Shown in pieces: positions 48,666 through 61,929 of a stretch of DNA of 64,000 nucleotides. The stretch is from Bacteroides luti. GTDB taxonomy: Bacteria > Bacteroidota > Bacteroidia > Bacteroidales > Bacteroidaceae. The DNA is taken from assembly GCF_900128905.1 (NCBI RefSeq), contig NZ_FQTV01000004.1, positions 62,001 through 126,000 of the forward strand. The letters are read 5' to 3'. Position 1 is the first letter of the stretch. The number at the start of each line of letters is the position of its first letter. The translations under genes and the position numbers were made by a program. The notes beneath the pieces were generated by a model. It was given only the letters and a program-made list of their open reading frames with translations, did no database searches and had not been told where the DNA came from.

Positions 48666-50057
48666 ATGATAAACCAGGATACAATCTGCGCCGTAGCCAC
48701 CGCACAAGGAGGAGCCATCGGCATAATCAGAGTCTCAGGCCCCGAAGCCATAGCTATAACTAGCTCAATATTTATGCCCGTGCAGGAAAAAGTGAAACTG
48801 CAAGAAAAAGAAGCATACACCCTTACCTTTGGAAAAATCTGCAAAAGAGAAGAGGTGATAGATGAAGTGCTTGTCAGCCTTTTCCGTGCCCCCCACTCCT
48901 ATACAGGCGAAGACTCCACAGAGATATCGTGTCATGGTTCATCATATATCTTGCAACAGGTCATGCAGCTTCTTATAGAAAAAGGTTGCCGCTCTGCCCT
49001 TCCGGGAGAGTTTACACAACGTGCCTTTCTCAATGGAAAGATGGACCTCAGTCAGGCCGAAGCGGTAGCCGATCTTATCGCTTCCTCATCTGCAGCAACC
49101 CATCGCCTTGCCATGAGTCAGATGCGTGGTGGATTCAGTAAAGAGCTAACCGACCTACGTACCCAACTGCTCAACTTTGTTTCCATGGTAGAATTGGAGC
49201 TCGACTTCAGTGAAGAAGATGTAGAGTTTGCCAACCGCGACGCACTTCTAAAGCTGACAGAGAACATCGAGCAAGTCATTACTCGCCTGGCAGATTCGTT
49301 CAATGTGGGCAACGCCATAAAGAACGGAATTCCCGTAGCCATTATTGGAGAAACAAACGCCGGAAAGTCCACACTGCTCAATGTGTTGCTTAATGAAGAA
49401 AAAGCTATTGTCAGCGATATTCACGGTACCACACGCGATGTGATTGAAGATACCATAACCATAAAAGGCACGCTGTTCCGCTTTATCGACACAGCCGGTA
49501 TCCGCGAAACGCACGATAAGATTGAAAGCATCGGTATTGAGCGCACCTTCCGCAAGCTCGATCAGGCCGAAATCGTACTCTGCATGATTGCTGCTACCGA
49601 TAGTCACGAGCAAATAGAACAACTGGCTGCCAAAATCAAGCCAAAGTGCAAAGGCAAGCAACTCATTATGGTTTTCAACAAAAGCGACCTCATCACCGAA
49701 GAACAGAAAAACGATCTGGAGAAACTGGCTATCAAGCATAAATCGAGCCATATCTTTATCTCGGCAAAGAACCGTGAAAACACCATTGAACTGGAAGACC
49801 TGCTAGTAAAAACCGCCAATCTTCCAACCGTTACTCAGAATGATGTGATTGTAACCAACATCCGTCATTACGAAGCACTGGTACATGCCCTCGATTCTAT
49901 TCATCGAGTAAAAGATGGATTACATAATAACATCTCAGGCGACTTCCTTTCACAGGATATCCGTGAGTGTATGCATTACCTTGGAGAGATTACAGGAACT
50001 ATATCTAACGATGAAATTTTAGGGAATATCTTTTCACATTTTTGTATTGGAAAGTGA
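48666..50057 (+). CDS. mnmE: tRNA modification GTPase MnmE (TrmE)
   Basis: 463 residues, full length. The N-terminal formyl-tetrahydrofolate-binding domain (about 1-120, with CAVATAQGGAIGIIRVSG) precedes helices and a GTPase domain: G1 GETNAGKST (about 228), G3 DTAG and G4 NKSD. The C-terminus is the conserved FCIGK, whose cysteine acts in catalysis. With MnmG it makes cmnm5U34 in tRNAs. The last 18 bases are the attL site of an integrated element; the synonymous GGA codon and TGA stop are supplied by whichever DNA lies left of the crossover, so the protein end is unchanged. It is preceded by the nucleoside phosphorylase gene. Confidence 0.95.
   Translation: MINQDTICAVATAQGGAIGIIRVSGPEAIAITSSIFMPVQEKVKLQEKEAYTLTFGKICKREEVIDEVLVSLFRAPHSYTGEDSTEISCHGSSYILQQVMQLLIEKGCRSALPGEFTQRAFLNGKMDLSQAEAVADLIASSSAATHRLAMSQMRGGFSKELTDLRTQLLNFVSMVELELDFSEEDVEFANRDALLKLTENIEQVITRLADSFNVGNAIKNGIPVAIIGETNAGKSTLLNVLLNEEKAIVSDIHGTTRDVIEDTITIKGTLFRFIDTAGIRETHDKIESIGIERTFRKLDQAEIVLCMIAATDSHEQIEQLAAKIKPKCKGKQLIMVFNKSDLITEEQKNDLEKLAIKHKSSHIFISAKNRENTIELEDLLVKTANLPTVTQNDVIVTNIRHYEALVHALDSIHRVKDGLHNNISGDFLSQDIRECMHYLGEITGTISNDEILGNIFSHFCIGK
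50040..50057 (+). other. attL, 18 bp at the end of mnmE
   Basis: TTTTGTATTGGAAAGTGA encodes FCIGK and the stop. It matches attR in 16 of 18 positions, and both copies encode the same peptide. It corresponds to the site used by SGI1-type islands in other bacteria, the last 18 bp of trmE. Confidence 0.75.
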
Positions 50058-50199
50058 TGTCTATTTTTAAGATAAACAAAGATATAAAGAAAGCATAAAT
50101 AAAACAATAAAAGCCTTATTAAACAAGGCATTAAAGTAAAGCAGATTAAAATTATTTTTTATTTTAGTTTGCTTTTTTTATTGTGTTTTTTGTTGTTAC
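50058..50199. other. Left-end noncoding segment of the element
   Basis: Between attL and the arm-type sites lie about 140 AT-rich bases. GCCTT-ATTAAAC-AAGGC near 50119-50135 may now serve as the mnmE terminator. No start codon with a coding frame is seen before 50246. Confidence 0.4.
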
Positions 50200-50259
50200 T
50201 TTGTTGCTGAAGATAGAGAGCAACAAACCAGCAACAAAAAAATATATGGGAGCAACAAA
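50200..50259. promoter_or_regulatory. Left cluster of putative integrase arm-type sites
   Basis: TTTGTTGCT at 50200-50208 and its exact reverse complement AGCAACAAA at 50219, 50230 and 50251. Spacings of the last three are 11 and 21 bp. The final copy is inside the first codons of the integrase gene, so binding could also repress integrase. Confidence 0.6.
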
Positions 50260-51415
50260 AGTTAAAGCCTCAACAAAGGCACAAAAAGAGCCTGTAAGAC
50301 TAAGAGAAAGAGAATTAACCAACGGTAGTAAAAGTCTGTATCTTGATATTTACAGAGATGGTAAACGAGAATATGAGTATTTAAAGCTCTATCTTATCAA
50401 AGCTACCACACCAATAGAAAAAGAACAGAATCGCCAAACATTGGGCACTGCTCAAGCTATTAAAGCCAAACGACAAATAGAGATACAAAACGGAGAATAC
50501 GGATTTGCAAGCTCATTTAAAACAGATACTCCTTTCCTGGCATATTTCAGAAAATTATGTGAAGAAAGAAAAGCGAGCACGGGTAATTATGGAAATTGGC
50601 ATAGCTGTTTGAAACACCTTGAACATTACGCCAACGAAAAAACAACTTTTAAACAAATAGGTCCTGATTTTATAGACGGATTTAAAGACTATCTGAACAA
50701 CACGGCTAAGGACCTACACAAATATAGATTAAACAATATATCAGATAATGAGGCTACAAAACCACTTTCTCAGAACTCTAAAGTAAGCTACTTTAATAAA
50801 CTAAGGGCCTGTATTAACCAAGCGTTTGATGATCGTATACTTCCAATAAATCCATTAAGAGGTATTGATGGGTTTAAACAAGATGAAACAGAAAGAGTGT
50901 ACCTTACTTTGGATGAGGTGAAAAAATTAGCTAAAACAGACTGCAAATACCCTGTATTAAAACGAGCCTTCCTTTTCAGTTGCTTAACAGGTATCAGAAA
51001 AAGCGATATCGAAAAAATGATATGGGGAGAGATTCAAACTTTTGGCGATTTTACAAGAGTCGTATTTAAGCAGAAGAAAACAGGAGGTCAAGAGTATTTG
51101 GATATCAATAAACAAGCAGAAGAATATTTGGGTGAAAGAGATATAGACAATTCCCGCGTCTTTTCTGGATTTAGATATAATAGCCAAGTGCTTATTGAGT
51201 TGAAACGATGGTGTTTAAAAGCCGGAATAACAAAAGATGTTACTTTCCATAGTGGTAGGCACACATTCGCTGTGATGATGCTTGATTTAGGGGCCGAACT
51301 ATACACTGTCTCAAAGCTACTAGGGCATAAAGAGATAAAGACTACACAAATCTATGCCAAAGTCTTAGATAAAAAGAAACAAGAAGCTATTTGTCTTATC
51401 CCGGACATTACATAG
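50246..51415 (+). CDS. int: Tyrosine recombinase/integrase of the element
   Basis: 389 residues from the ATG at 50246; a GTG at 50183 would read through the arm sites and is less likely. An N-terminal SAM-like core-binding domain (about 90-215) precedes the catalytic domain. Catalytic residues are the first arginine in CLTGIRKSD (about 251), HxxR in FHSGRHTF (about 335-338), the second histidine in LLGHKEIKTTQIYAK (about 361) and the nucleophile tyrosine about 370. It recombines the attP site with the 3' end of mnmE. It lies next to attL, the usual place. Confidence 0.93.
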   Translation: MGATKVKASTKAQKEPVRLRERELTNGSKSLYLDIYRDGKREYEYLKLYLIKATTPIEKEQNRQTLGTAQAIKAKRQIEIQNGEYGFASSFKTDTPFLAYFRKLCEERKASTGNYGNWHSCLKHLEHYANEKTTFKQIGPDFIDGFKDYLNNTAKDLHKYRLNNISDNEATKPLSQNSKVSYFNKLRACINQAFDDRILPINPLRGIDGFKQDETERVYLTLDEVKKLAKTDCKYPVLKRAFLFSCLTGIRKSDIEKMIWGEIQTFGDFTRVVFKQKKTGGQEYLDINKQAEEYLGERDIDNSRVFSGFRYNSQVLIELKRWCLKAGITKDVTFHSGRHTFAVMMLDLGAELYTVSKLLGHKEIKTTQIYAKVLDKKKQEAICLIPDIT

Positions 51416-51468
51416 GGTAGATTTGTATCTGGTAGTGACTTTCTTAGTTTTAATTTAAAAAAGCAATT

Positions 51469-52182
51469 ATGAGGCTAAAAAATAATTTTTTAAAAGAGGT
51501 GCAAGAAGCCCAAGTAAGAGGCGACACCCAATTACATCGTATAGGAATTCGCATTAACAACCAAGTAAAAGGTGAGTTTAAAGCGGAGAATTTTACCGAT
51601 AAGCTTATAAAAGACTACGCAAATACAAGACTTCCTATAAGCCTTTACATTGAAGCAGAAACAGATCGTTTAAAGAACATATACAGTGCTTTAAAAGCTT
51701 GCTATGGAGCTTTAATTAGTGAATGTGAGGGCGCTGGAATCATAGGTCAATATTTGGATTTTATTTCTAAGGATGGAATCAATATATTATCTCCTAAAGA
51801 AAATGAATCGATCTCAAATAGTCGATTTAACAATAATCAATTTAGCCGTTCATTTAAAAATGAAGGACTTGAGTATGTATATAAAATCCTTTTAGATAAA
51901 GGATATATTGAGGAAGCCTTACACGATGATTTTTATTATGTATTTGGTAATATAATAGATAAGCCAAAAGAATTTCATAAGATAGTTTGGAAAAAGGAAC
52001 TAAAAGCACTTGCTACTTTCATAAATGCATTTACTGAAGATTTCAATAGATGGGCAATAGCACAAAATTGCTTTCTAATAAATGGGAAAACAATTAGTGT
52101 AGGTTCAATAAAATCATCTGTTAGTGGAAAAAAACTACACAAAGACTATAATTTTTTTAAAGATTTAGTAGCAGACCATTAA
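51469..52182 (+). CDS. Unknown protein of the element
   Basis: 237 residues; no family recognised. Charged and helical in character, without signal peptide or membrane segment. The first part has repeated polar strands (RIGIRINNQVKGEFKAENFTDKLIKDYANTR), the middle a hydrophobic core (LKACYGALISECEGAGIIGQYLDF) and the end WAIAQNCFLINGKTISVGS. It lies 53 bases after the integrase, and a strong terminator follows it, so integrase and this gene form one unit distinct from the excisionase operon. Similar genes beside integrases in Bacteroidetes elements are usually regulatory, but I have no evidence for that here. Confidence 0.7.
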   Translation: MRLKNNFLKEVQEAQVRGDTQLHRIGIRINNQVKGEFKAENFTDKLIKDYANTRLPISLYIEAETDRLKNIYSALKACYGALISECEGAGIIGQYLDFISKDGINILSPKENESISNSRFNNNQFSRSFKNEGLEYVYKILLDKGYIEEALHDDFYYVFGNIIDKPKEFHKIVWKKELKALATFINAFTEDFNRWAIAQNCFLINGKTISVGSIKSSVSGKKLHKDYNFFKDLVADH

Positions 52183-52207
52183 AATTGCACCAAATAAGTT
52201 AACGGGT

Positions 52208-52239
52208 GGCTAACGGGTTATTCTGTTAGCCTTTTTTTT
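52208..52239 (+). terminator. Terminator of the integrase unit
   Basis: GGCTAAC (52208-52214) pairs with GTTAGCC (52225-52231), followed by eight Ts. Confidence 0.85.
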
Positions 52240-52279
52240 GTTTCATTTTCTTTGATATTTGCAATGTAATTACAAGAAA

Positions 52280-52295
52280 TAAGGTGCGCACCTTA
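52280..52295. promoter_or_regulatory. 16-bp perfect palindrome upstream of the excisionase-like gene
   Basis: TAAGGTGCGCACCTTA is its own reverse complement and lies 26 bases before the ATG at 52322, where an operator for the early operon would be. No recognised repressor gene is in the element, so the binder may be one of the small DNA-binding proteins or a phage factor. Confidence 0.55.
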
Positions 52296-52321
52296 ATACT
52301 AATAATTAATAACTTGTAGAT

Positions 52322-52615
52322 ATGAATGAAGAATTAATGGGTAAACTTGATAGGATTGAAAAGCTCACCCTCTTATCAGTTAAGAATGTGCTAAACATTG
52401 AAGATGTTTCACTACTTACAGGATTAAGTAAAGGTTTCTTGTATAAAATGACTTGCAGAAATGAAATACCATTTTACAAGCCTAACAATAAGAACATATT
52501 CTTTGACCGTGCAGATGTTGAAAGCTGGATGAAACGAAATAAGATTGCATCTACAGAAGAGATTGACCAAAAGGCTAACAACTATGTAGTCAATGGAAAG
52601 AAAGGAGGGCTTTAA
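52322..52615 (+). CDS. Excisionase-like helix-turn-helix protein
   Basis: 97 residues. The core VLNIEDVSLLTGLSKGFLYKMTCRNEIPFYKPNNKNIFFDRADVESWM matches the MerR-like excisionase family (HTH_17), where the second helix and a short wing bind DNA. Such proteins act as excisionases or directionality factors for tyrosine integrases. It ends two bases before the next gene. Expression from its own operon, separate from integrase, fits control of excision. Confidence 0.82.
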   Translation: MNEELMGKLDRIEKLTLLSVKNVLNIEDVSLLTGLSKGFLYKMTCRNEIPFYKPNNKNIFFDRADVESWMKRNKIASTEEIDQKANNYVVNGKKGGL

Positions 52616-52617
52616 TA

Positions 52618-52854
52618 ATGGATGAAGCAAAGTTAATATTGCTACTGTCTGACGGTGGAAGACATAGCGTTATAGAAATAGTTAAACGGCTGTTCATTGT
52701 TGACCCAAGAGCCGTTATTAGAAACATCAGAAACAGGGGTGTAAACGTTTCCGATGAATGGGTAAAAACTCCAAGTGGGAAGAAGTATAAACTTTATTGG
52801 ATAGATCAAAAAAGGCCTGAATACTATGGGGATGAATTACATAGAACTGATTAA
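52618..52854 (+). CDS. Small winged-helix-like DNA-binding protein
   Basis: 78 residues. ILLLSDGGRHSVIEIVKRLFIVDPRAVIRNIRNRGVNVSDEWVKTPSGKKYKLYWI has the helix-turn-helix and wing pattern of short phage DNA-binding proteins that precede replication genes. The stop overlaps the replication initiator start by 29 bases, a tight coupling. The exact role is unknown; a replication accessory or regulator is likely from position. Confidence 0.65.
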   Translation: MDEAKLILLLSDGGRHSVIEIVKRLFIVDPRAVIRNIRNRGVNVSDEWVKTPSGKKYKLYWIDQKRPEYYGDELHRTD

Positions 52855-53818
52855 CGACTTCTGGCGACTTCATACCGAAGAACAATTTACCCCCGCTGAA
52901 GGCCTTATGTATATGCATTTGTTGGATGTTTCCAATCACTTAGGATGGAAAAACCCATTTAAACAAGCAAATGCAAGAATTGCGTCCGTCCTTGGCGTAA
53001 CTGAAAAAACTATTGTCACAGCAAGGCGGCATTTGGAAGAAGCCGGGTTAATTGAGTATAAACACGGACAAGGCCGAAGATATGTTTCTTCTTATACGCT
53101 TTTAAAAGTTGATGAAAATGCACCCGAAAAAGGTACCCAAAAAGTGGAAATAAAAGACCCCTTTTATAACATTCAGAACAATAAAGGTACCCGAAAAAGC
53201 ACCCAAAAAGTGGAAATAAAAGACCCCTATTCGGGCGGAAACACTACCGTCAACATAAAACATAAACAAAAAGAAACAAAAGAATATAATATATTATCTC
53301 CTAAAGAAGATAATATACCTTCCACACCTGAAGGCGTGAAAGCCTCTAATGGCAAAAAAAGTACAATTACGGCACTTCCTTTCAAGAAAATAACTGAGTT
53401 ATGGAACGAAACGTGTACAAGCTATGCCAAGGTTCTAAATCTAAGCGAAAGCCGTAAAAACAAAATACGCATCCGCGTTGAAGAAATGGGAGGAATTGAA
53501 AAAGCTCTTCCTGTTTTGCAGCAAATTTTCACTAACGTTCAAAATAATTTATTTCTAAAAGGTCAGAATCAAAGAGGATGGAAAGCATCCTTTGATTGGA
53601 TATTTGAAAACGACAAAAATTGGGTTAAAGTATTTGAAGGGAATTACGACAATGACAAAAACTACAAAAACAGTGGGGAACATACTTCCTCAGATGGAGC
53701 TAAAGAAAAGCGTGACCGGGAATTTGCAGAGCACATCGCAACCCAAATGGGTTGGGGAAATAAGAATGCCGAAACAGCAGGAATTGAAGAACTCATTAAC
53801 TCCGTCAGAATTGGTTAA
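52826..53818 (+). CDS. Replication initiator-like protein (phage O/DnaD type)
   Basis: 330 residues from the ATG at 52826 (a second ATG at 52832 is equally possible). The N-terminal winged helix (about 5-95: LINDFWRLHTEEQFTPAEGLMYMHLL, NARIASVLGVTEKTIVTARRHLEEAGLIEYK) resembles phage replisome organisers. A low-complexity linker (about 95-185) contains a 22-residue repeat (KVEIKDP twice). The C-terminal domain (about 190-275: FKKITELWNETC, RGWKASFDWIFENDKNWVKV) resembles phage replication proteins that recruit helicase. The gene contains a possible origin at its linker, as in lambda O. This gives the element its own replication function. Confidence 0.75.
   Translation: MGMNYIELINDFWRLHTEEQFTPAEGLMYMHLLDVSNHLGWKNPFKQANARIASVLGVTEKTIVTARRHLEEAGLIEYKHGQGRRYVSSYTLLKVDENAPEKGTQKVEIKDPFYNIQNNKGTRKSTQKVEIKDPYSGGNTTVNIKHKQKETKEYNILSPKEDNIPSTPEGVKASNGKKSTITALPFKKITELWNETCTSYAKVLNLSESRKNKIRIRVEEMGGIEKALPVLQQIFTNVQNNLFLKGQNQRGWKASFDWIFENDKNWVKVFEGNYDNDKNYKNSGEHTSSDGAKEKRDREFAEHIATQMGWGNKNAETAGIEELINSVRIG
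53122..53325. other. Candidate replication origin inside the initiator gene
   Basis: ACCCGAAAAAG and ACCCAAAAAG occur as a pair at 53122 and 53135 and again at 53189 and 53201. A 28-base stretch is identical at 53135-53162 and 53201-53228, 66 bp apart. Right after it an AT-rich tract runs from about 53253 to 53325. Iterons followed by an AT-rich tract within the linker of an initiator gene is the lambda O/ori arrangement. The repeat could also be only a coding duplication. Confidence 0.55.
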
Positions 53819-53857
53819 TCAATGAGATGGAATCACTAATTTATAAAATTAAGCATT

Positions 53858-54460
53858 ATGAAAAATAAAGAAAGAATTCTTTTAAAAGAAGACGAAATTC
53901 TACAAGAAAAAAGAATAGATGAAGCCAAGGAAGTAGCTTTATACATAAATGAGAAAGTAATACCTCAAATACTAGAGTTAGGCATACAGCCCAGTAATGA
54001 GGTTATAATTGATGTTTTAAAAGAAGCCCGAATAACAACAGAACTTTATAATGAGATGGTTGAAAAAGATATCTCTAAGTTTGATTCTAGGGCTGTTAAA
54101 AGCAATTTGAGAGCAAAGGCTAACAAAGTATTAGAAAATACTAAAGTCTACTTTGAACGGGCAAAATATGATATCAGAGGACAGAACCAATATCTAAGAT
54201 ATTTGGATATTCAAGATGGGGTGTGCATTCTGAGTGAAGAAGGTATAGAATCCATTAAAGAAGGTTGCAGGTATTATTTAGAGTCAGAAGATGAAATCAG
54301 GGCTTACAAGGCTCACAAAAAGGTTGTGGAAGCTCTCAATGAGTTCTTTAATGGAAGAATACCAATGCTTTGGCAAACTCTATTTGACGTTAAAAATGGA
54401 GAATTTATTATTAACCCGAATGCTAATTATAAATACATCTTAGGAAATGGGAGTAACTAA
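53858..54460 (+). CDS. Unknown protein of the element
   Basis: 200 residues; no family recognised. It is mostly helical and charged (EDEILQEKRIDEAKEVALYINEKVIPQILELG; KSNLRAKANKVLENTKVYFERAKYDI) with a C-terminal part containing RIPMLWQTLFDVKNGEFIINPNANYKYI. It overlaps the next small gene by 14 bases. It follows the replication gene by 39 bases. The helical character could suit a replication accessory or regulatory role, but there is no direct evidence. Confidence 0.65.
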   Translation: MKNKERILLKEDEILQEKRIDEAKEVALYINEKVIPQILELGIQPSNEVIIDVLKEARITTELYNEMVEKDISKFDSRAVKSNLRAKANKVLENTKVYFERAKYDIRGQNQYLRYLDIQDGVCILSEEGIESIKEGCRYYLESEDEIRAYKAHKKVVEALNEFFNGRIPMLWQTLFDVKNGEFIINPNANYKYILGNGSN

Positions 54461-54653
54461 AGAAGCTTTAGAAAAAGCGCACAAACTTAGAATTGCAAGA
54501 TTGCAAAAAGAAGCAGAAGAACAAAAAATCTCACATATTGTAAACAAAGGAACTCTTTCTATCGAATACGGAGTTATGGAATCAGCCTTGCAAAAGATGA
54601 GGGAAAACACTCCACATAGAGAGTTTTGTTTAGATAGTAGTCGCTCTGAATAG
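54447..54653 (+). CDS. Small unknown protein of the element
   Basis: 68 residues, overlapping the gene before it by 14 bases, which supports translation. The sequence MGVTKEALEKAHKLRIARLQKEAEEQKISHIV is a basic-acidic amphipathic helix; the second half (YGVMESALQKMRENTPHREFC) is also helical. No family recognised. The first of the three 17-bp dyads lies just after its stop codon. Confidence 0.55.
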   Translation: MGVTKEALEKAHKLRIARLQKEAEEQKISHIVNKGTLSIEYGVMESALQKMRENTPHREFCLDSSRSE

Positions 54654-54664
54654 ATTTATGAAAG

Positions 54665-54681
54665 CGTTTACAGTACAAACG
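54665..54681. promoter_or_regulatory. 17-bp dyad A upstream of the tape measure module
   Basis: CGTTTACAGTACAAACG, within the longer AAGCGTTT...AAACGCTT dyad (54662-54684). A second direct half, TACAAACACTT, follows 15 bases later. It shares the pattern CGTTTA-N5-YAAACG with two sites after the tape measure gene. Confidence 0.6.
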
Positions 54682-54717
54682 CTTATGGTACAAACACTTT
54701 TTAATATAAAAATAATT

Positions 54718-55029
54718 ATGGAAAAGAAATTAGAAGCAATAAATCCTAATAAAATAGGGCTATTGATGCAAGATATAGCAGACATCCTTAAAAAAGACAC
54801 AGACCCCGAAACAGGCAGAATGTCGGTTTATTCTGATGTAGATTTTCAAAAATTAAAAGAAATAAGCCAAAATAGAGGCGTTAATCTTTATGATTTGGCC
54901 GATATCACTATTGCAATAGTGAGAAGTATTGTTGTGAACCAAGAAGAGTTAAAAAATAAAGCCTCAACACGTCCAGGTGAATTAATGGTTCAGATAGAGT
55001 CTTTAAGATTAGATTTAAACAATAAATAG
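54718..55029 (+). CDS. Small protein upstream of the tape measure gene
   Basis: 103 residues from the ATG at 54718, after the 17-bp dyad. The start MEKKLEAINPNKIGLLMQDIADILKKDTDPETGR is followed by SDVDFQKLKEISQNRGVNLYDLADITIAIVRSIV and a helical tail. No family recognised. In tailed phages small tail-assembly chaperones are encoded just before the tape measure gene, and the eight-base gap fits co-expression; a chaperone role is a positional guess only, with no frameshift signal seen. Confidence 0.6.
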   Translation: MEKKLEAINPNKIGLLMQDIADILKKDTDPETGRMSVYSDVDFQKLKEISQNRGVNLYDLADITIAIVRSIVVNQEELKNKASTRPGELMVQIESLRLDLNNK

Positions 55030-55037
55030 TAAGCGCT

Positions 55038-58000
55038 ATGAATTACGACGAAGGGAAAGAATATTACGGCATAAGCCTCGATGATTCAGAATTGAGAGCT
55101 GCTGCTGCGCGTGTCAAAAACGCATTCAGTCAAATAGGCAATAGTGCAGAATCAGAGGGCTCAAGGATAGACAATGCTTTTAATAAGATCGCTGCTACGG
55201 CTGCCGGGATATTCACAATAGAGAAAGCCACTGAATTTGCAAAGTCGATAATTGATGTTAGAGGTGAGGTTGAATCTCTTGAAATCTCATTTGAAACATT
55301 AGTTGGGAATAAGAAAGAAGCTCAGGAACTGATGTCGTCCATCCGACAGTACGCCGTTGAAACTCCTATGTTGCTAGGGGACTTAGCCAAAGGCGCACAA
55401 ACTCTCTTATCATTCAATATAGAGGCCCAGAATATAATGCCAATCTTAAAGCAAATTGGTGATATTTCTATGGGCGATGCGAATAAATTTAATTCGCTAA
55501 TCCTTGCATTCTCTCAGATGTCATCTACTGGAAAATTGATGGGACAAGACCTATTGCAGATGATTAATGCCGGGTTCAATCCATTAACTGAAATTTCCGC
55601 TAAAACAGGCAAATCAATCAGTGATCTTAAGAAAGATATGGAGGCTGGTTCTATTTCTTCCAAAATGGTAGCTGAAGCATTTGCTTCTGCCACAGCTGAA
55701 GGAGGGAAATTTAATGGTATGCTTGAAAAGCAAAGTAAAGGAATTAAAGGCAGCATTTCCAATCTTGAAGGAGCAATGGAAGATGCTTTTAATAATATTG
55801 GAAGTAATAACCAAGACTTTATTACCGGGGGTATAGCCCTTGCTACTCAACTTGTGCAGAACTATGAGACATTAGGTAAAGTTATCGCTGGCTTGGTCGC
55901 TACGTATGGAACCTATAAGGCCGCTGTCTTAGTTGTTAACCTAGTGCTAAAAGAGCAGGCCGCAATAAATGCAATGGTAGCCGCTTCAAATGGTGTGTTT
56001 AATTCATCTTTAGCTGCTCAATGGCTATGGACAGAAAGGCTGCAAAAGGCTCAAGCTTTTCTAAATAAAACTATGTTATCAAACCCGTATGTGTTAGCTG
56101 CTACATTAGTAGCCGGATTAGCTGTAACTCTATGGGCCTTATCAGATTCAACTTCATCAGCGGAGAAAGCGCAAAAGAACTTTAATGATACGATGAATGG
56201 CATTAAAGATAATTGCGACGCGTTAAAGTCTAAAACAGATTCGTTAATCTCAACTATCCGCGATGAATCCTCAACAAGGTATCAAGCAAATAAGGCATAT
56301 CTTGAATTACAACAGATAATGCCTCAAACCTTTAAGCATCTGGATATTGAAAGAATTAAAACGATGAATCTCGTTGATGTTCAAAAGATGCGTAATGAAG
56401 AGCTAGGCCGGACAATGAGAATGGGTATAGCTGTCAAGGCCGTACAAGCAAAACAGGACTACGAAATTGCCAAAAAAGCCTATTTCTATAGTTTAAAAGT
56501 GAACGGCGCTCCATCTCCTGTCTTAAGAGATGATATGATTGAGAAACTTGATACCTGGAAATTATTTCAATCATCATCCGATACATCAAATAAAGCATTA
56601 AAAGCGGCGGCGACTACTCCTTTATCATCCATTTCTAAGGAAACAACAGAGGCCACAAGCAAAATAAGAACTCTAAAGAAGGAAATTGCAAGCCTAAGAA
56701 GTGGGAAAACTAAATCAACTAATTACGCTGAAGAAATTGAGTCTAAAAGTAAAGAGTTAAAAACTTGGGAAACTAGGCTCTCTACTCTTACCGGGGTAAC
56801 AAAATCAACTGAATCGGCCGCACAGAAAGCAGCTCACACAGCAGAAAACAAAAGAAAGCAAGAAGTTGAATCTGAAAATAAAATATCGGAATTAAAAAGC
56901 AAGCAATCTCTTGAAGAACGAAGAGCTGATGAAGACATACAAAATCAGATCGAGCAAGCTCATATTGATATTTTAAAAGACGGCAACGAAAAAACACTTG
57001 CTCAAATGCAATTCAACCATAAAAAAGAGTTGCAGCAATTAGACCGTCAAAAAGAAGACTATATCAATAAAATTATAGATTCTGAAAGGGCAAAATTCAA
57101 CGCTGACCCAAAGAATAAGGGAAAGTTATTTAATATTGATAACGTCCAGATTCCACAAGCGCAGATTGACGAATACGACTCTTTCAGAAAAGCCACTGAA
57201 GCCAAGCAGCAAAAAGAATATGATGATTTTTATAAGACGCTGACAGATAAATACAAGAATTATGCAGATCAGCGCCTAGCCATTGAGGAAAAGTTTAATA
57301 AGGACATTGAAACGTTGCGTCAACGACGTGCTGAAGCTATTGCAAGCGGTAATAAATCACGCGTTGATGAAATGGATAAGGCTATTGCTCAAGCAACCGT
57401 TGACAAGGGTAAAGAGTTAATGACTTTTGATTTTGGAAGGCTCAAAGAATCTCCTGAATATGTCCGGGCTTTTGAGGACTTGAAAAATACTTCATCTGAA
57501 ACGCTTGATTCCCTGTTGTCTCAGTTGCAAGATGCAAAGCAGACAGCTGCAACGGTCCTTTCTCCCGACCAATTGCGAGAGTACACCACCACTATTCAGT
57601 CTATTATTGACGAATTGGCGAATAGAAACCCTTGGCAGACTATTATTGACCGCAAAAAAGAACTTGCTGAAGCTGAACAAGAGCTTAAGAAAGCAACATT
57701 GGAGCTTAGATACATTCAGAATGGTGGAAAGATCGGAAATGGTGAAACTACTTATAATAAATCAACTGGTAAGATTGACCAGAAATATATTACTGAGGAA
57801 CAGGCAATCAAGAAAGTTAATGCGGCTAAGGATAAGTATAATAAAACTGATAACGAAACAAAGAAAGCTGAAAAGCAACTTTCAGACCAAGTTTTAGAAC
57901 TTACCGACTCCTTTAAAAAGGTTGGTGATGCTATTGGAGGAACAGAAGGCGAAATAATTTCCTTTATAGGCGATATCGGCTCGTTTGTAATGACTTCTAT

Positions 58001-59417
58001 GCAGAGTATTGATAAAGTATCAACTGCAAGCGCAAATTCAATAAAAGCTGTTGAGAAAGCGTCTGTCATCCTTACTATTATTTCTATGGCTATCCAGCTG
58101 ATGGAAAAGCTTGATTCTCTTTTATCAAATAAAGCATATGAAGATTACCTTAAATATGATGCAAAAATTGAAGAGATAAATAAAATCACTGATGCTGTTA
58201 ATGAATATCAGCTGGCTGTTTTAAAAGCCAATCAAGCGGAGTTAAATTGGTTCTCAGATGATAAACTTCAAAGCCTTAAGGATTATAAAGATCAGCAGGG
58301 AAAAATATTCGAACAATATCAGAAGAAAATAACAGAAGAACAGGCCGTTTATCAAAATAAAAGTGGCGGAGGTTGGTTGACATCTACAGCCCAGCTTCTA
58401 ACTGGCCAATGGTTTACTGATACCGTTTTTGGAACGAATTTAACCGGGCATAAATATAATAAAGAAACTGCGGCGGCTATTAATAATTTAAAGATTGAAA
58501 CCAGAAAATCAAGCAAGGGATTCCTTGGCTCGGGAATCGGCGGTAAATCTCAAAAGACAGAGGATTTGCTTGCCTGGATAAAATCAGTCCCTGAATTATC
58601 AAATCTTGGAGACCTATTTGATGCCAATAATCAAAATATGATTAACAAAGAGCTTGCCGACACTATTCTTGATAAATACGGTGATAAACTCGTTGGCCAG
58701 ACAAAGGAGACACTAGAGGCCCTTGTTAAAATGAGGGAACAGTATGACGAATACATCAAGCAGCTCCGGGAGTATGTCAGCTCACTATATGAACCACTCG
58801 TTGATGATTTCGTAAGTAGTATGTGGGATTGGTTGGATAATGGGAAAGATGCCTTAGACAGCTTTAAAGATTACGCAAGTAATACTTTCCGTGACATTGT
58901 TTCCGATATGCTAAAAACAATGATTCTTGATAAGGTTGTAGACGGGTTCCAGAATGATATTGCCGGATTTTATGAAAAGTGGTCTGCTGGCAACCTTACT
59001 TATGAGGACTTAATGGCGCAAGTTACAGCTCGTACGGCTACGTTAATGAATAGTTATCAAGCACAATTGCCAACGTTACAGGATATGCTTAAAAATATAT
59101 CAGCTGGCCTTAATGGAATTGGAATTGATATTACTAATACTGATTCTTCATCCAGATCGGGAACAACCAAAGGTGTAACAACAGCAAGTCAGGATAGCGT
59201 TGATGATCTTACCGGGAGAGCAACGAACATTCAGGGACATACATACACCATATCTGAGTGTAGTAAAACGCTTGTAGAACAAAACAGTAAGATGCTGGAA
59301 GCAATGCAAGGAATAAAGACTAACACCGACAGATTGGCCCCTATACAATCAAGTATAGGTTCACTGAAAACAACCTTAGATGATATTTCTTCGAGAGGCG
59401 TTAAAATAAGAAATTAA
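55038..59417 (+). CDS. Phage tail tape measure protein
   Basis: 1459 residues. The tape measure N-terminal domain (about 70-215) is clear: VRGEVESLEISFETLVGNKKEAQELM, then SLILAFSQMSSTGKLMGQDLLQMINAGFNPL. Two membrane segments follow (about 285-305, 350-368). Long coiled coils fill about 620-980, another hydrophobic stretch lies near 1010 and the C-terminus is Ser/Gly/Thr-rich. Tape measure proteins set tail length at about 0.15 nm per residue, so this copy would correspond to a tail of roughly 200 nm. No tail tube, sheath or other virion gene is nearby. It is intact, in frame and flanked by related regulatory dyads. Confidence 0.92.
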   Translation: MNYDEGKEYYGISLDDSELRAAAARVKNAFSQIGNSAESEGSRIDNAFNKIAATAAGIFTIEKATEFAKSIIDVRGEVESLEISFETLVGNKKEAQELMSSIRQYAVETPMLLGDLAKGAQTLLSFNIEAQNIMPILKQIGDISMGDANKFNSLILAFSQMSSTGKLMGQDLLQMINAGFNPLTEISAKTGKSISDLKKDMEAGSISSKMVAEAFASATAEGGKFNGMLEKQSKGIKGSISNLEGAMEDAFNNIGSNNQDFITGGIALATQLVQNYETLGKVIAGLVATYGTYKAAVLVVNLVLKEQAAINAMVAASNGVFNSSLAAQWLWTERLQKAQAFLNKTMLSNPYVLAATLVAGLAVTLWALSDSTSSAEKAQKNFNDTMNGIKDNCDALKSKTDSLISTIRDESSTRYQANKAYLELQQIMPQTFKHLDIERIKTMNLVDVQKMRNEELGRTMRMGIAVKAVQAKQDYEIAKKAYFYSLKVNGAPSPVLRDDMIEKLDTWKLFQSSSDTSNKALKAAATTPLSSISKETTEATSKIRTLKKEIASLRSGKTKSTNYAEEIESKSKELKTWETRLSTLTGVTKSTESAAQKAAHTAENKRKQEVESENKISELKSKQSLEERRADEDIQNQIEQAHIDILKDGNEKTLAQMQFNHKKELQQLDRQKEDYINKIIDSERAKFNADPKNKGKLFNIDNVQIPQAQIDEYDSFRKATEAKQQKEYDDFYKTLTDKYKNYADQRLAIEEKFNKDIETLRQRRAEAIASGNKSRVDEMDKAIAQATVDKGKELMTFDFGRLKESPEYVRAFEDLKNTSSETLDSLLSQLQDAKQTAATVLSPDQLREYTTTIQSIIDELANRNPWQTIIDRKKELAEAEQELKKATLELRYIQNGGKIGNGETTYNKSTGKIDQKYITEEQAIKKVNAAKDKYNKTDNETKKAEKQLSDQVLELTDSFKKVGDAIGGTEGEIISFIGDIGSFVMTSMQSIDKVSTASANSIKAVEKASVILTIISMAIQLMEKLDSLLSNKAYEDYLKYDAKIEEINKITDAVNEYQLAVLKANQAELNWFSDDKLQSLKDYKDQQGKIFEQYQKKITEEQAVYQNKSGGGWLTSTAQLLTGQWFTDTVFGTNLTGHKYNKETAAAINNLKIETRKSSKGFLGSGIGGKSQKTEDLLAWIKSVPELSNLGDLFDANNQNMINKELADTILDKYGDKLVGQTKETLEALVKMREQYDEYIKQLREYVSSLYEPLVDDFVSSMWDWLDNGKDALDSFKDYASNTFRDIVSDMLKTMILDKVVDGFQNDIAGFYEKWSAGNLTYEDLMAQVTARTATLMNSYQAQLPTLQDMLKNISAGLNGIGIDITNTDSSSRSGTTKGVTTASQDSVDDLTGRATNIQGHTYTISECSKTLVEQNSKMLEAMQGIKTNTDRLAPIQSSIGSLKTTLDDISSRGVKIRN

Positions 59418-59421
59418 AGTA

Positions 59422-59478
59422 CGTTTATAATATAAACGCTTTGCAAAGTTTAACATTTATGCGTTTACCGTATAAACG
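59422..59478. promoter_or_regulatory. Two 17-bp dyads (B and C) after the tape measure gene
   Basis: Dyad B, CGTTTATAATATAAACG (59422-59438), has perfect 8-bp arms; dyad C, CGTTTACCGTATAAACG (59462-59478), starts exactly 40 bp later. The palindrome CTTTGCAAAG lies between them (59439-59448). B and C match the site before the small gene at 54718. They lie in the 199-bp gap before the paralogous genes, where a promoter is expected. Confidence 0.6.
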
Positions 59479-59616
59479 TTTACATAATTTACTAAAAACA
59501 AATTGATTTTGCAATAGGTTTTTTTTTAAATCTTTCGTAGATATTTGTCCCGGGGTAATAAAGCATTAGCTCCACAACAACAATTTCATTATTTTACAAC
59601 TAAATTTTTTATTAAT

Positions 59617-59967
59617 ATGGAAACAGATATCACTTTTTCAACAAATGAAAAAAACGCTATTATTGCAAAACTCATTGATTACAACAAAACATATACTGGG
59701 GGTGCGCTTGTCAGTGAAGATGAAATTCAAAGTAAGATAAACACTTTATCCTCAATAATGGAGAAAATGAACATTGTTAATGCTGGATTTATGGATAATA
59801 CGCCCAGTATTATTGATGCGATAAACAATAGTTCATATAAACCAGAAGAAAAAAGAAGTATGATTGAATCAGTGTCTATTGAAGTACAATTAAGAAACCT
59901 AATAAACCGCAACCTAGATGATATTTCTTTCTTTTCTTGTTTACTAACCGAAATAGCAGACGTATAA
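59617..59967 (+). CDS. Small unknown protein, first of two tandem paralogues
   Basis: 116 residues from the ATG at 59617 (an upstream ATG at 59545 is less likely because it adds a non-conserved extension). The sequence FSTNEKNAIIAKLIDYNKTYTGG is matched by FSSKDKEAIIAKVVEFNKKYTNG in the next gene, and both end in a short acidic segment. The rest is helical (TPSIIDAINNSSY; LRNLINRNLDDISFF). No family recognised. Duplicated small genes beside a phage structural gene suggest accessory or interference functions. Confidence 0.7.
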   Translation: METDITFSTNEKNAIIAKLIDYNKTYTGGALVSEDEIQSKINTLSSIMEKMNIVNAGFMDNTPSIIDAINNSSYKPEEKRSMIESVSIEVQLRNLINRNLDDISFFSCLLTEIADV

Positions 59968-59987
59968 TAACACAAATACTAATCATT

Positions 59988-60335
59988 ATGAAAAAAACTA
60001 TTTTTTCCAGCAAAGATAAAGAAGCAATAATAGCAAAAGTAGTCGAGTTTAATAAAAAATATACCAATGGTGGGATTACAAATAGTGATGATGCTTATTG
60101 TAGATTATTATCTGCAAGAAGTATAACTGAAGCGATTTGTGATTTTAATGAATATTTTATTGATAGTGTGCCCTTTATTGTTGATGCAATAAATAAAAGT
60201 GATTATCCTGATTTTCAGAAGAAAATTATGATATCAGGATTACACACTGAAACAGCAACCAGAACTTTTCTTGACCGACAGAATGAAAACTTAGTCTTTT
60301 TAGACTCACTTCTATATGAATTGATAAATAATTAA
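59988..60335 (+). CDS. Small unknown protein, second of two tandem paralogues
   Basis: 115 residues from the ATG at 59988, chosen because the alignment with the first copy begins there. It shares the opening block, the VPFIVDAINKSDY core (compare TPSIIDAINNSSY) and a similar end (LVFLDSLLYELINN). The two are clearly tandem duplicates of moderate identity, spaced by 20 bases. Function unknown. A terminator follows within 30 bases, closing the tape measure module. Confidence 0.7.
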   Translation: MKKTIFSSKDKEAIIAKVVEFNKKYTNGGITNSDDAYCRLLSARSITEAICDFNEYFIDSVPFIVDAINKSDYPDFQKKIMISGLHTETATRTFLDRQNENLVFLDSLLYELINN

Positions 60336-60359
60336 TCCAATCCTTTTTTAAATAGCAGT

Positions 60360-60396
60360 AAGGCGGCAAACCCGAGAGGGCAAGTCGCCTTTTTTA
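60360..60396 (+). terminator. Terminator of the tape measure module
   Basis: AAGGCG (60360-60365) pairs with CGCCTT (60386-60391), with an inner CCC-GAGA-GGG hairpin, followed by Ts. Confidence 0.85.
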
Positions 60397-60480
60397 TGTT
60401 TTATAAAAAAAATGAGAATCAGCTTTATTATTAGTTTTATTCTTCTAAATTTGGAACTGAAATGACATTAAATCTATTTT

Positions 60481-60500
60481 TTTGTTGCTGTTTTGTTGCT
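60481..60500. promoter_or_regulatory. Right cluster of putative integrase arm-type sites
   Basis: TTTGTTGCT occurs at 60481-60489 and 60492-60500, 11 bp apart, with the same 9-mer as the left-end cluster. A weaker AGCAACACT lies next to attR at 60549. Confidence 0.6.
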
Positions 60501-60556
60501 TATAACAAAATATATAGCACTTAATCAAATGATAAACAACTAATTAACAGCAACAC

Positions 60557-60580
60557 TTCACATTTTGTATTGGCAAGTAA
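60557..60580 (+). other. attR with duplicated end of mnmE
   Basis: TTTTGTATTGGCAAGTAA (60563-60580) encodes FCIGK and a TAA stop, like the attL copy except for two synonymous or stop-codon changes. TTCACA (60557-60562) before it also matches attL apart from a one-base length change. It defines the right boundary of the element. Confidence 0.75.
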
Positions 60581-60650: not shown

Positions 60651-60837
60651 TTTTTAATTCAAGATACTTATTCCTATATTCCGATATTATTTCTACTCTT
60701 GCATCTTATACTATAGAAAGTTTTTCACGTCAAAATGTGACTTTTAAAAACACGAATCAACACTTTTCCTTGAGAGAATGAGTTAGTAGCTACATTGGAA
60801 AAGAGAATTGATCTCGTTGAACTTTAACAAAAAAACT

Positions 60838-61929
60838 ATGAAACACATTCATGCATACCAACATTATGCACTTAACACCAACAATGAGTTAGTACATATT
60901 AATAGCACAGTAAACAATGGCACCACAAAATATTACTGCCCCTTCTGCCATCAGGATATGATAACCAAACGTGGAGACATAAGACAATGGCATTTTGCTC
61001 ACAAATCCGACAAGGAAGAATGCTCCTATGATAAATATTTACACACAATTGCAGAGAAACTAATAATGGATTGGTTCAATAAAACTGATTCTATAAAGCT
61101 TGTACTGTCCACAGATAATAAATGTAGTAAATATGAAGACTGCAAATTTTATAATTCTTTCTATTGTAGAAAAGATGACACTGCTGATTTTGAATTAAAA
61201 ACATTTTATTCTAACTGTTCCTTAGAAAAGCGATATATAGTAAATGACAAGGCGTTTGTTGCAGATATATTATGTAACAACAAAACGAATTCATCTTCTC
61301 CTCTTTTTCTTGAGATTTATGTATCTCACAAATGCGAGCAAGCAAAGATAGATTCTGGTATTAGAATAATTGAGTTTCATGTTCAATCAGAAGAAGATAT
61401 ATTGAACATCATAAATTCTTCTGAGATTAGAGAAGGTGACAATATTATGTTGTACAACTTTAAACGAAAAGACAAATATACCGATAAACTAGAAAGACCT
61501 TTCGAGAAATACATCTTATTTTCAAACATGAAAAGTTATGTAGACAAGATCAGCTATACATGTAAGAATTTTAATCGGTTACATAAGGGCATTTATGAAA
61601 TTAGTTTTCCATACAATGACTGTAGATCACTTTTCCTTAATTGTGGTGGCTTTTATGTCGTTGGTAAGGCTAAAGCTTATTATGATAACTTCTTAAAAAA
61701 GGATTGCAGTTTATGCAAATATCATTCTAAAGACACAGAGGGTAATGATTTATGCAAGTTGTATAAAAAATGCGGAAATCATAAATATTGTAGAGATAAT
61801 GATGCAGCAATATGTACTATGTTTAGGATGAACCAAGATATTATAAATCTAGCTATTTCAGAATTTAATAAGTTTACTTCCCAAAACCATGTAGATATTT
61901 GGCCTCAAAATATATATAGCATGAAATAA
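60838..61929 (+). CDS. CoiA-like nuclease with zinc-finger-like cysteines
   Basis: 363 residues from the ATG at 60838. The N-terminal motif CPFCHQDMITKRGDIRQWHFAHK (C34, C37, H52, H55) is the CoiA-type zinc finger. The nuclease-like core has E73, D143 (VADIL) and E159 (LEIYVSHKCE), a PD-(D/E)XK pattern. The C-terminus is cysteine-rich (CSLCKYHSKD...CKLYKKCGNHKYC). CoiA proteins promote DNA processing in competent bacteria. Here it is a single gene just outside the integrated element. Its role in Bacteroidales is not established. Confidence 0.8.
   Translation: MKHIHAYQHYALNTNNELVHINSTVNNGTTKYYCPFCHQDMITKRGDIRQWHFAHKSDKEECSYDKYLHTIAEKLIMDWFNKTDSIKLVLSTDNKCSKYEDCKFYNSFYCRKDDTADFELKTFYSNCSLEKRYIVNDKAFVADILCNNKTNSSSPLFLEIYVSHKCEQAKIDSGIRIIEFHVQSEEDILNIINSSEIREGDNIMLYNFKRKDKYTDKLERPFEKYILFSNMKSYVDKISYTCKNFNRLHKGIYEISFPYNDCRSLFLNCGGFYVVGKAKAYYDNFLKKDCSLCKYHSKDTEGNDLCKLYKKCGNHKYCRDNDAAICTMFRMNQDIINLAISEFNKFTSQNHVDIWPQNIYSMK

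Follow-up and report, generated by a model that had tools for sequence, protein, structure and literature searches.

Integrated at the 3′ end of mnmE in Bacteroides luti is an element of about 10.5 kb that carries its own replication initiator gene. The element lies in a 64,000-nucleotide (nt) stretch of contig NZ_FQTV01000004.1 (positions 62,001–126,000, forward strand), referred to here as the window, and all coordinates are those of the window unless another locus is named. In order, the element encodes an integrase, an excisionase-like helix–turn–helix (HTH) protein, a small winged-HTH protein, the initiator, small open reading frames (ORFs), a tape-measure protein and two further small ORFs. 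Its G+C content is 35.1%, compared with 40.0% in the left flank, and its boundary sequence reads TTCACATTTT(T)GTATTGG(A/C)AAGT. The main features are as follows.

50033–60580, no strand: integrative element, ~10.5 kb, inserted at the mnmE 3′ end
50033–50057: left end of the element, which is the mnmE 3′ end (TTCACATTTTTGTATTGGAAAGTGA)
60557–60580: right end of the element, an imperfect copy (TTCACATTTTGTATTGGCAAGTAA)
50183–51415, + strand: tyrosine integrase (Pfam Phage_integrase, 4.5e-21; SAM-like and Arm domains)
52322–52615, + strand: excisionase-like HTH_17 protein (HTH_17, 4.8e-10; phrog_66 excisionase, 4.8e-8)
52832–53818, + strand: replication initiator, 328 aa, starting at the MNYIEL methionine common to homologues (there is an upstream ATG at 52826)
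52832–53110, + strand: initiator N-domain, residues 1–93, winged helix, presumed iteron-binding (HTH_36; AlphaFold2 pLDDT ~95)
53378–53656, + strand: initiator C-domain, residues 183–275, helical, presumed helicase or primase contact (AlphaFold2 pLDDT mostly >85)
55038–59417, + strand: tape-measure protein, 1,459 aa (TMP_3, 1.2e-27; phrog_9959, 9e-190)

Relatives adjoin mnmE in other genomes. No capsid, portal or terminase gene was recognised among the Pfam and PHROG matches of the element's ORFs, and no helicase or primase gene was recognised in the element either, so that replication proteins of the host or a helper would be needed. Just to the right of the element, an ORF of 373 aa with a TTG start (60808–61929) has Cys-rich motifs and is CoiA-like by sequence appearance, with no PHROG match.

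The initiator matches PHROG profiles for a replication initiation protein (phrog_19658, 6e-34), a DnaD-like loader (phrog_10469, 7e-28) and an O-like protein (phrog_345, 9e-23), and no Pfam or NCBIfam model above cut-off gives its family a name. AlphaFold2 predicts a confident winged helix for residues 1–95, low confidence for residues ~100–180 and confident helical structure for residues ~183–240 and again ~250–265. The low-confidence segment, presumably a disordered linker, coincides exactly with the repeat and A+T region described below. The best Pfam match of the N-domain is HTH_36, in place of RepA_N (PF06970), which was absent both from the initiator's matches at E ≤ 1 and from the 25 families commonest in 32 members. 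Fold matches of this domain include the N-domains of plasmid RepA proteins (4pql, 4pt7 and 5kbj), the match to 4pql (Z 10.0, 2.3 Å over 85 residues) being tied with the winged helices of Fur, CRP and CodY. By its layout the initiator seems to work like proteins of the type that carry the origin in their own gene, and by Pfam it is not a RepA_N protein. For the C-domain model, Foldseek found no fold in the PDB; the DnaD-like loader match is at the sequence level, and a loader role therefore rests on the PHROG annotation together with the gene neighbourhood. Homologues of the initiator lie directly beside a helicase gene in a phage contig (L224; DnaB-type) and in Riemerella phage CRP5 (replicative helicase). 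In the deposited record of the latter (vB_RanS_CRP5; L250, 704–1495) the annotated initiator coding sequence begins at 812 and the homologous frame at 704, leaving the gene without its first 36 codons; its linker holds a long SDTVLDTVSDTDIDTV array.

The middle of the initiator gene contains direct repeats followed by an A+T-rich tract:

53122–53132, + strand: ACCCGAAAAAG, box 1, degraded in the closest homologue
53189–53199, + strand: ACCCGAAAAAG, box 2, read in a different frame from box 1 and not conserved
53135–53144 and 53201–53210: ACCCAAAAAG, opening each copy of the 28-bp repeat
53135–53162, + strand: iteron 1, 28 bp, with the conserved core GTGGAAATAAAAGACCCC at 53144–53161
53201–53228, + strand: iteron 2, 28 bp, with the conserved core at 53210–53227
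53252–53318, + strand: presumed DNA-unwinding element, 67 bp, 82% A+T; A-rich at 53252–53282, then TATAATATATTATC at 53285–53298

An initial annotation of this DNA had placed a 28-bp perfect repeat with a spacing of 66 bp, followed by about 70 bp of AT-rich DNA, in the linker of the initiator. The repeat positions are exact, the AT-rich DNA corresponds to the 67-bp tract, and the predicted disordered stretch is encoded by precisely the repeat and A+T DNA. The perfect repeat is ACCCAAAAAGTGGAAATAAAAGACCCCT, and over a longer stretch of 38 nt the repeat identity is 92%. The ACCCGAAAAAG boxes precede the 28-bp copies by 13 and 12 bp and so stand in different frames: at a distance of 67, which is not a multiple of three, they are read as A-PEK-G and T-R-K-S. 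G+C content falls to 17.9% in the A+T tract, compared with 35.1% for the element, and within it, at 53268, starts the least stable 50-bp duplex of the element, bar ~0.01% of windows. The 18-bp core occurs twice in the 4.1-Mb genome even when two mismatches are allowed, both times in the initiator gene, and a search of 398 further genomes of the family gave no occurrence; among viral contigs the exact core was found in L224 only, and no near match was found in phages. The hyphenated inverted symmetry of the lambda type, with at least four iterons, is absent; there are two cores, with short G/C arms around an A-tract.

Repeats spaced by 66 bp, or 22 codons, in a linker predicted to be disordered could also be those of a low-complexity protein linker grown by in-frame tandem duplication, in which the DNA itself has no function. 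Repeats cover 85 nt of the linker, compared with 8.6 nt after codon shuffling and 24.4 nt after redrawing of synonymous codons alone, and none of 200 trials reached 85 nt under either scheme. The occurrence of one 11-mer in two frames also argues against a purely protein-level origin of the repeats.

The closest homologues bear on this more directly. Two of them were usable for a test of synonymous change: a locus in a Bacteroides sp. metagenome-assembled genome, reached by two routes (L043/L064), with an N-domain 91% identical to that in the window, and a viral contig with structural genes (L031/L224), with an N-domain ~80% identical and a different C-domain; the strongest single test comes from one homologue pair. 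Between the window and L043/L064, 20 codons of residues 94–152 have a changed amino acid, and yet none of the 39 conserved degenerate codons shows a synonymous change; in the N-domain, 8 codons have a changed amino acid and 31 of 81 conserved ones differ synonymously (linker versus N-domain, Fisher p=4.7e-7). The initial annotation had posed the question of whether the DNA repeats are conserved when the protein linker is not, and these counts answer that they are. Against L031, 10 of 12 iteron codons are identical, compared with 32 of 70 in the N-domain (p=0.016). The DNA conserved in both L043 and L031 is GTGGAAATAAAAGACCCC, present in L031 as one exact copy and other, varied ones. The last two iterons are 66 bp apart in both homologues, a spacing that L031 keeps despite an unrelated spacer peptide and a different C-domain, and the A-rich part of the A+T tract is almost unchanged in L043. 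Repeated boxes are present as first described, but the motif then taken for the iteron, ACCC(G)AAAAAG, is largely lost or degraded in L043 and was rejected in favour of the GTGGAAATAAAAGACCCC core. A linker whose protein drifts while its DNA stays fixed is the pattern that an embedded DNA signal gives. Recent recombination could also lower synonymous change in the linker, against which stand the 20 replaced codons within the same stretch.

A survey of the family extended these observations. An alignment of the N-domain yielded 160 loci, drawn from viral contigs as well as species genomes, which together with further loci gave 107 non-redundant genes. By exact 9-mers, linkers were repetitive in 72 of 103 non-redundant genes, and in 63 of the 103 the repetition also went beyond synonymous redraws; 9-mer repeats covered 17.8% of the linker, compared with 1.1% of the N-domain and 2.3% of the C-region. 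A mismatch-tolerant score found repetitive linkers in 91 of 104 genes, versus 10 of 104 for the N-domain control of the same genes. No significant repeats were detected in 13 of the 104 homologues (about one in eight), which counts mildly against universality. The repeat unit varies from gene to gene (GGTAACATAAAT, ACCTAACTCGAT, GGTAAGTAAAGA, TGCACAGGTTAC and others, mostly 12 bp), and the encoded peptides are unrelated. In 65 of 89 genes the 45 nt richest in A+T lay between −15 and +200 nt relative to where the N-domain ends, a count made without a null model. Exact inverted 9-mer pairs were present in 31 of 104 linkers, with 5.0 expected from codon shuffling (maximum 10) and 7.4 from synonymous redraws (maximum 17). 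The inverted copy often sits at the junction of wing and linker, as in L005, where TACTTACCT (encoding Tyr-Leu-Pro) faces AGGTAAGTA (within Glu-Val-Ser-Lys repeats). Inverted copies have no apparent protein-level cause, and a repeat in the protein does not explain them.

Most repeat pairs within genes are in phase (227 of 241), as growth of a protein linker by tandem duplication would have it; with only 14 of 241 out of phase, we use the out-of-phase repeats just as support and not as main evidence. Zero synonymous change beside many replacements between species, the inverted copies, repetition in excess of synonymous redraws and a spacing retained although the spacer peptide differs all speak against that explanation, which we consider highly improbable.

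Iteron sharing among family members follows N-domain similarity when C-domain similarity is taken into account (partial r 0.18, 0/500 permutations) and, more weakly, C-domain similarity given the N-domain (partial r 0.04, 8/500 permutations); the similarities of the two domains are uncorrelated across the family. Because the iterons adjoin the N-domain, common descent contributes to their association. Pairs with similar C-domains are few (11), and iterons are often common to them as well. Judged from these sequence comparisons, N-domain and iterons appear to behave as one cassette. C-domain relatives with unrelated N-domains had upstream repeats in 5 of 13 cases, but several of the regions compared were misplaced, and no weight is placed on this count. 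Judged from the survey of linkers, the Bacteroidota phage proteins of this large, unnamed family appear as a rule to have repeats within their genes. The open-licence literature held nothing on in-gene origins in Bacteroidota or on satellites with a tape-measure gene.

We propose, with a probability of roughly 0.87, that the middle of the initiator gene (~53122–53318) is the element's origin of replication, at which the N-domain binds the iterons, the A+T tract opens and the C-domain brings in a helicase or primase. Its location within the gene, as first suggested by the initial annotation, is strongly indicated by sequence anatomy, DNA-level conservation, family-wide recurrence of the layout and predicted domain structure. 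By analogy with lambda O, SPP1 gp38 and pSK41 Rep, the winged-helix N-domain would bind two iterons of 18–28 bp, spaced by 66 bp and sharing the core GTGGAAATAAAAGACCCC, and binding would open the neighbouring A+T-rich tract. The helical C-domain, we infer, would then recruit a replicative helicase or primase supplied by the host or a helper phage. The protein encoded by the origin DNA would be a mere disordered tether, so that its amino acids may drift while the DNA is held.

Iteron initiators often regulate through their own sites as well. The repeats might accordingly serve autorepression, handcuffing-type copy control or a transcription roadblock, with the true origin elsewhere in the element, and an operator would be consistent with the inverted copies that many homologues have close to the junction of N-domain and linker. 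The sites nevertheless lie ~300 bp inside the gene, away from the promoter, and adjoin the weakest duplex of the element; their core has no other copy in the genome, and characterised systems of such layout use it as an origin (PMC7466680, PMC6316719, PMC5703833). We regard a solely regulatory role as very improbable.

From the origin the initial annotation had gone on to an induced, multicopy phase of the element. An origin alone does not imply such a phase, which is plausible: the element retains an integrase, an excisionase-like gene and recognisable att sites. Binding, melting, loading and the presence of more than one copy of the excised element are the parts of the model that we infer. 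The sequence may instead be a former origin in a dead remnant permanently confined to the chromosome, with no multicopy phase. The two att copies differ and the tape measure is the only structural gene recognised, as might be expected of a remnant; however, the reading frames for the integrase, the excisionase-like protein, the initiator and the tape measure are all intact, and similar compact, intact elements occur in other genomes and once more in the same genome. On balance a dead remnant seems unlikely.

The element combines an integrase and its own replication module with an incomplete virion gene set, the combination that marks a satellite. Four relatives (L242, L243, L244 and L246) have an integrase, an excisionase-like gene, an initiator and an intact giant tape-measure gene, in some followed by a large tail protein; no capsid, portal or large-terminase protein was recognised among the proteins scanned, which come from part of their ORFs. 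Together they look like a possible class of phage satellites that carry a tape measure. We tentatively suggest, as a possibility that is less probable than not, that small satellites recur in Bacteroidota with an integrase, an origin-in-initiator replicon that exchanges N-domain and iterons as a cassette, and a tape measure without a capsid, and that, once excised, they replicate themselves and parasitise a helper phage's tail or retune it. A satellite-like Riemerella record of 10.85 kb (PP067980) was rejected because the genes at its two ends are truncated, which makes it a fragment.

The B. luti genome contains another element built like the first (G000:C28:379000-391900; C28 ~379–392 kb; L257 7082–19900). 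It encodes an integrase, a xis-like protein, an HTH protein, an initiator with a different N-domain, a 1,366-aa tape measure and a 1,205-aa tail protein, and its initiator linker contains TCTACTCTATCA twice, 63 bp apart, plus an inverted copy. Relatives integrated at mnmE share a conserved protein of 155–171 aa (L242, 8773–9276, − strand; L245, 7210–7674, + strand; also L246 and L243), whose gene lies upstream of either the tape-measure gene or tail-like ORFs. It matches phrog_15125 where scanned, has the motif KGFQPGN...RQPKxRGRKPSLYK and may be a packaging or DNA-binding protein. Relatives have an initiator-like protein of an unrelated kind (DUF6291; L242, 10338–10988, − strand), which has NPIPNPIPNPIPNP repeats in its linker and is encoded beside a DnaC-like loader gene; its in-gene-repeat layout is that of the window initiator in another protein family.

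If correct, this reading would provide precise, testable origins for many Bacteroidota phages and integrated elements with mostly unnamed initiators from the sequence of one gene. Predicted origins would aid the construction of small replicons and shuttle vectors for gut bacteria, and induced elements could be recognised from coverage peaks at the predicted place. Replication specificity, residing in N-domain and iterons, would move as a cassette between different C-domains, as in the staphylococcal plasmid pPR9.

An origin within the initiator gene is already known from phage lambda and some staphylococcal plasmids. As the initial annotation had noted for lambda, the placing resembles that of ori-lambda within gene O, and the origins of related lambdoid phages belong here too; iterons and then an A+T-rich tract occupy the central part of the initiator gene (PMC7466680). 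In lambda gene O, unwinding needs no more than two iterons beside the A+T tract, and additional iterons lengthen the O protein (PMC7466680). Whereas the four iterons of lambda are 18 bp long and each form a hyphenated inverted repeat (PMC6022878), the element has two copies 66 bp apart with symmetry that is weak at best; its initiator is related to O only through the PHROG ‘O-like’ profile, and a P-like loader gene was not recognised in the element. Gene 38 of phage SPP1 likewise holds direct repeats and an A+T-rich unwinding element (oriL) inside the initiator gene (PMC6316719), but the SPP1 genome also contains oriR, a second origin, and encodes a loader and helicase of its own; the element has one site, and neither protein was recognised in it. 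The Vibrio satellite PLE is similarly integrated in the chromosome with its own initiator, RepA, and iterons (PMC7145576), although its iterons lie in the non-coding NCR3, its RepA is a RepA_N protein and its host belongs to another phylum. The domain plan resembles that of the staphylococcal pSK41 Rep and the chimeric pPR9 Rep, with an N-terminal winged helix, a central origin-encoded linker and a separate C-domain. In pSK41 Rep, a RepA_N protein, the winged helix binds Rep boxes in the centre of rep, and the origin-encoded central segment is a dispensable linker, the C-domain being separate (PMC5703833). The window initiator differs from it in that PF06970 is not among the 25 commonest families of 32 members and in that its C-domain lacks a PDB fold match; antisense RNA control is a feature of the pSK41 plasmids. 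In pPR9 Rep, a pfam13730 (HTH_36) N-domain and origin have replaced those of pSK41 Rep and support replication, the C-domain having been kept (PMC5703833); pPR9 is the nearest tested precedent for the initiator of the element.
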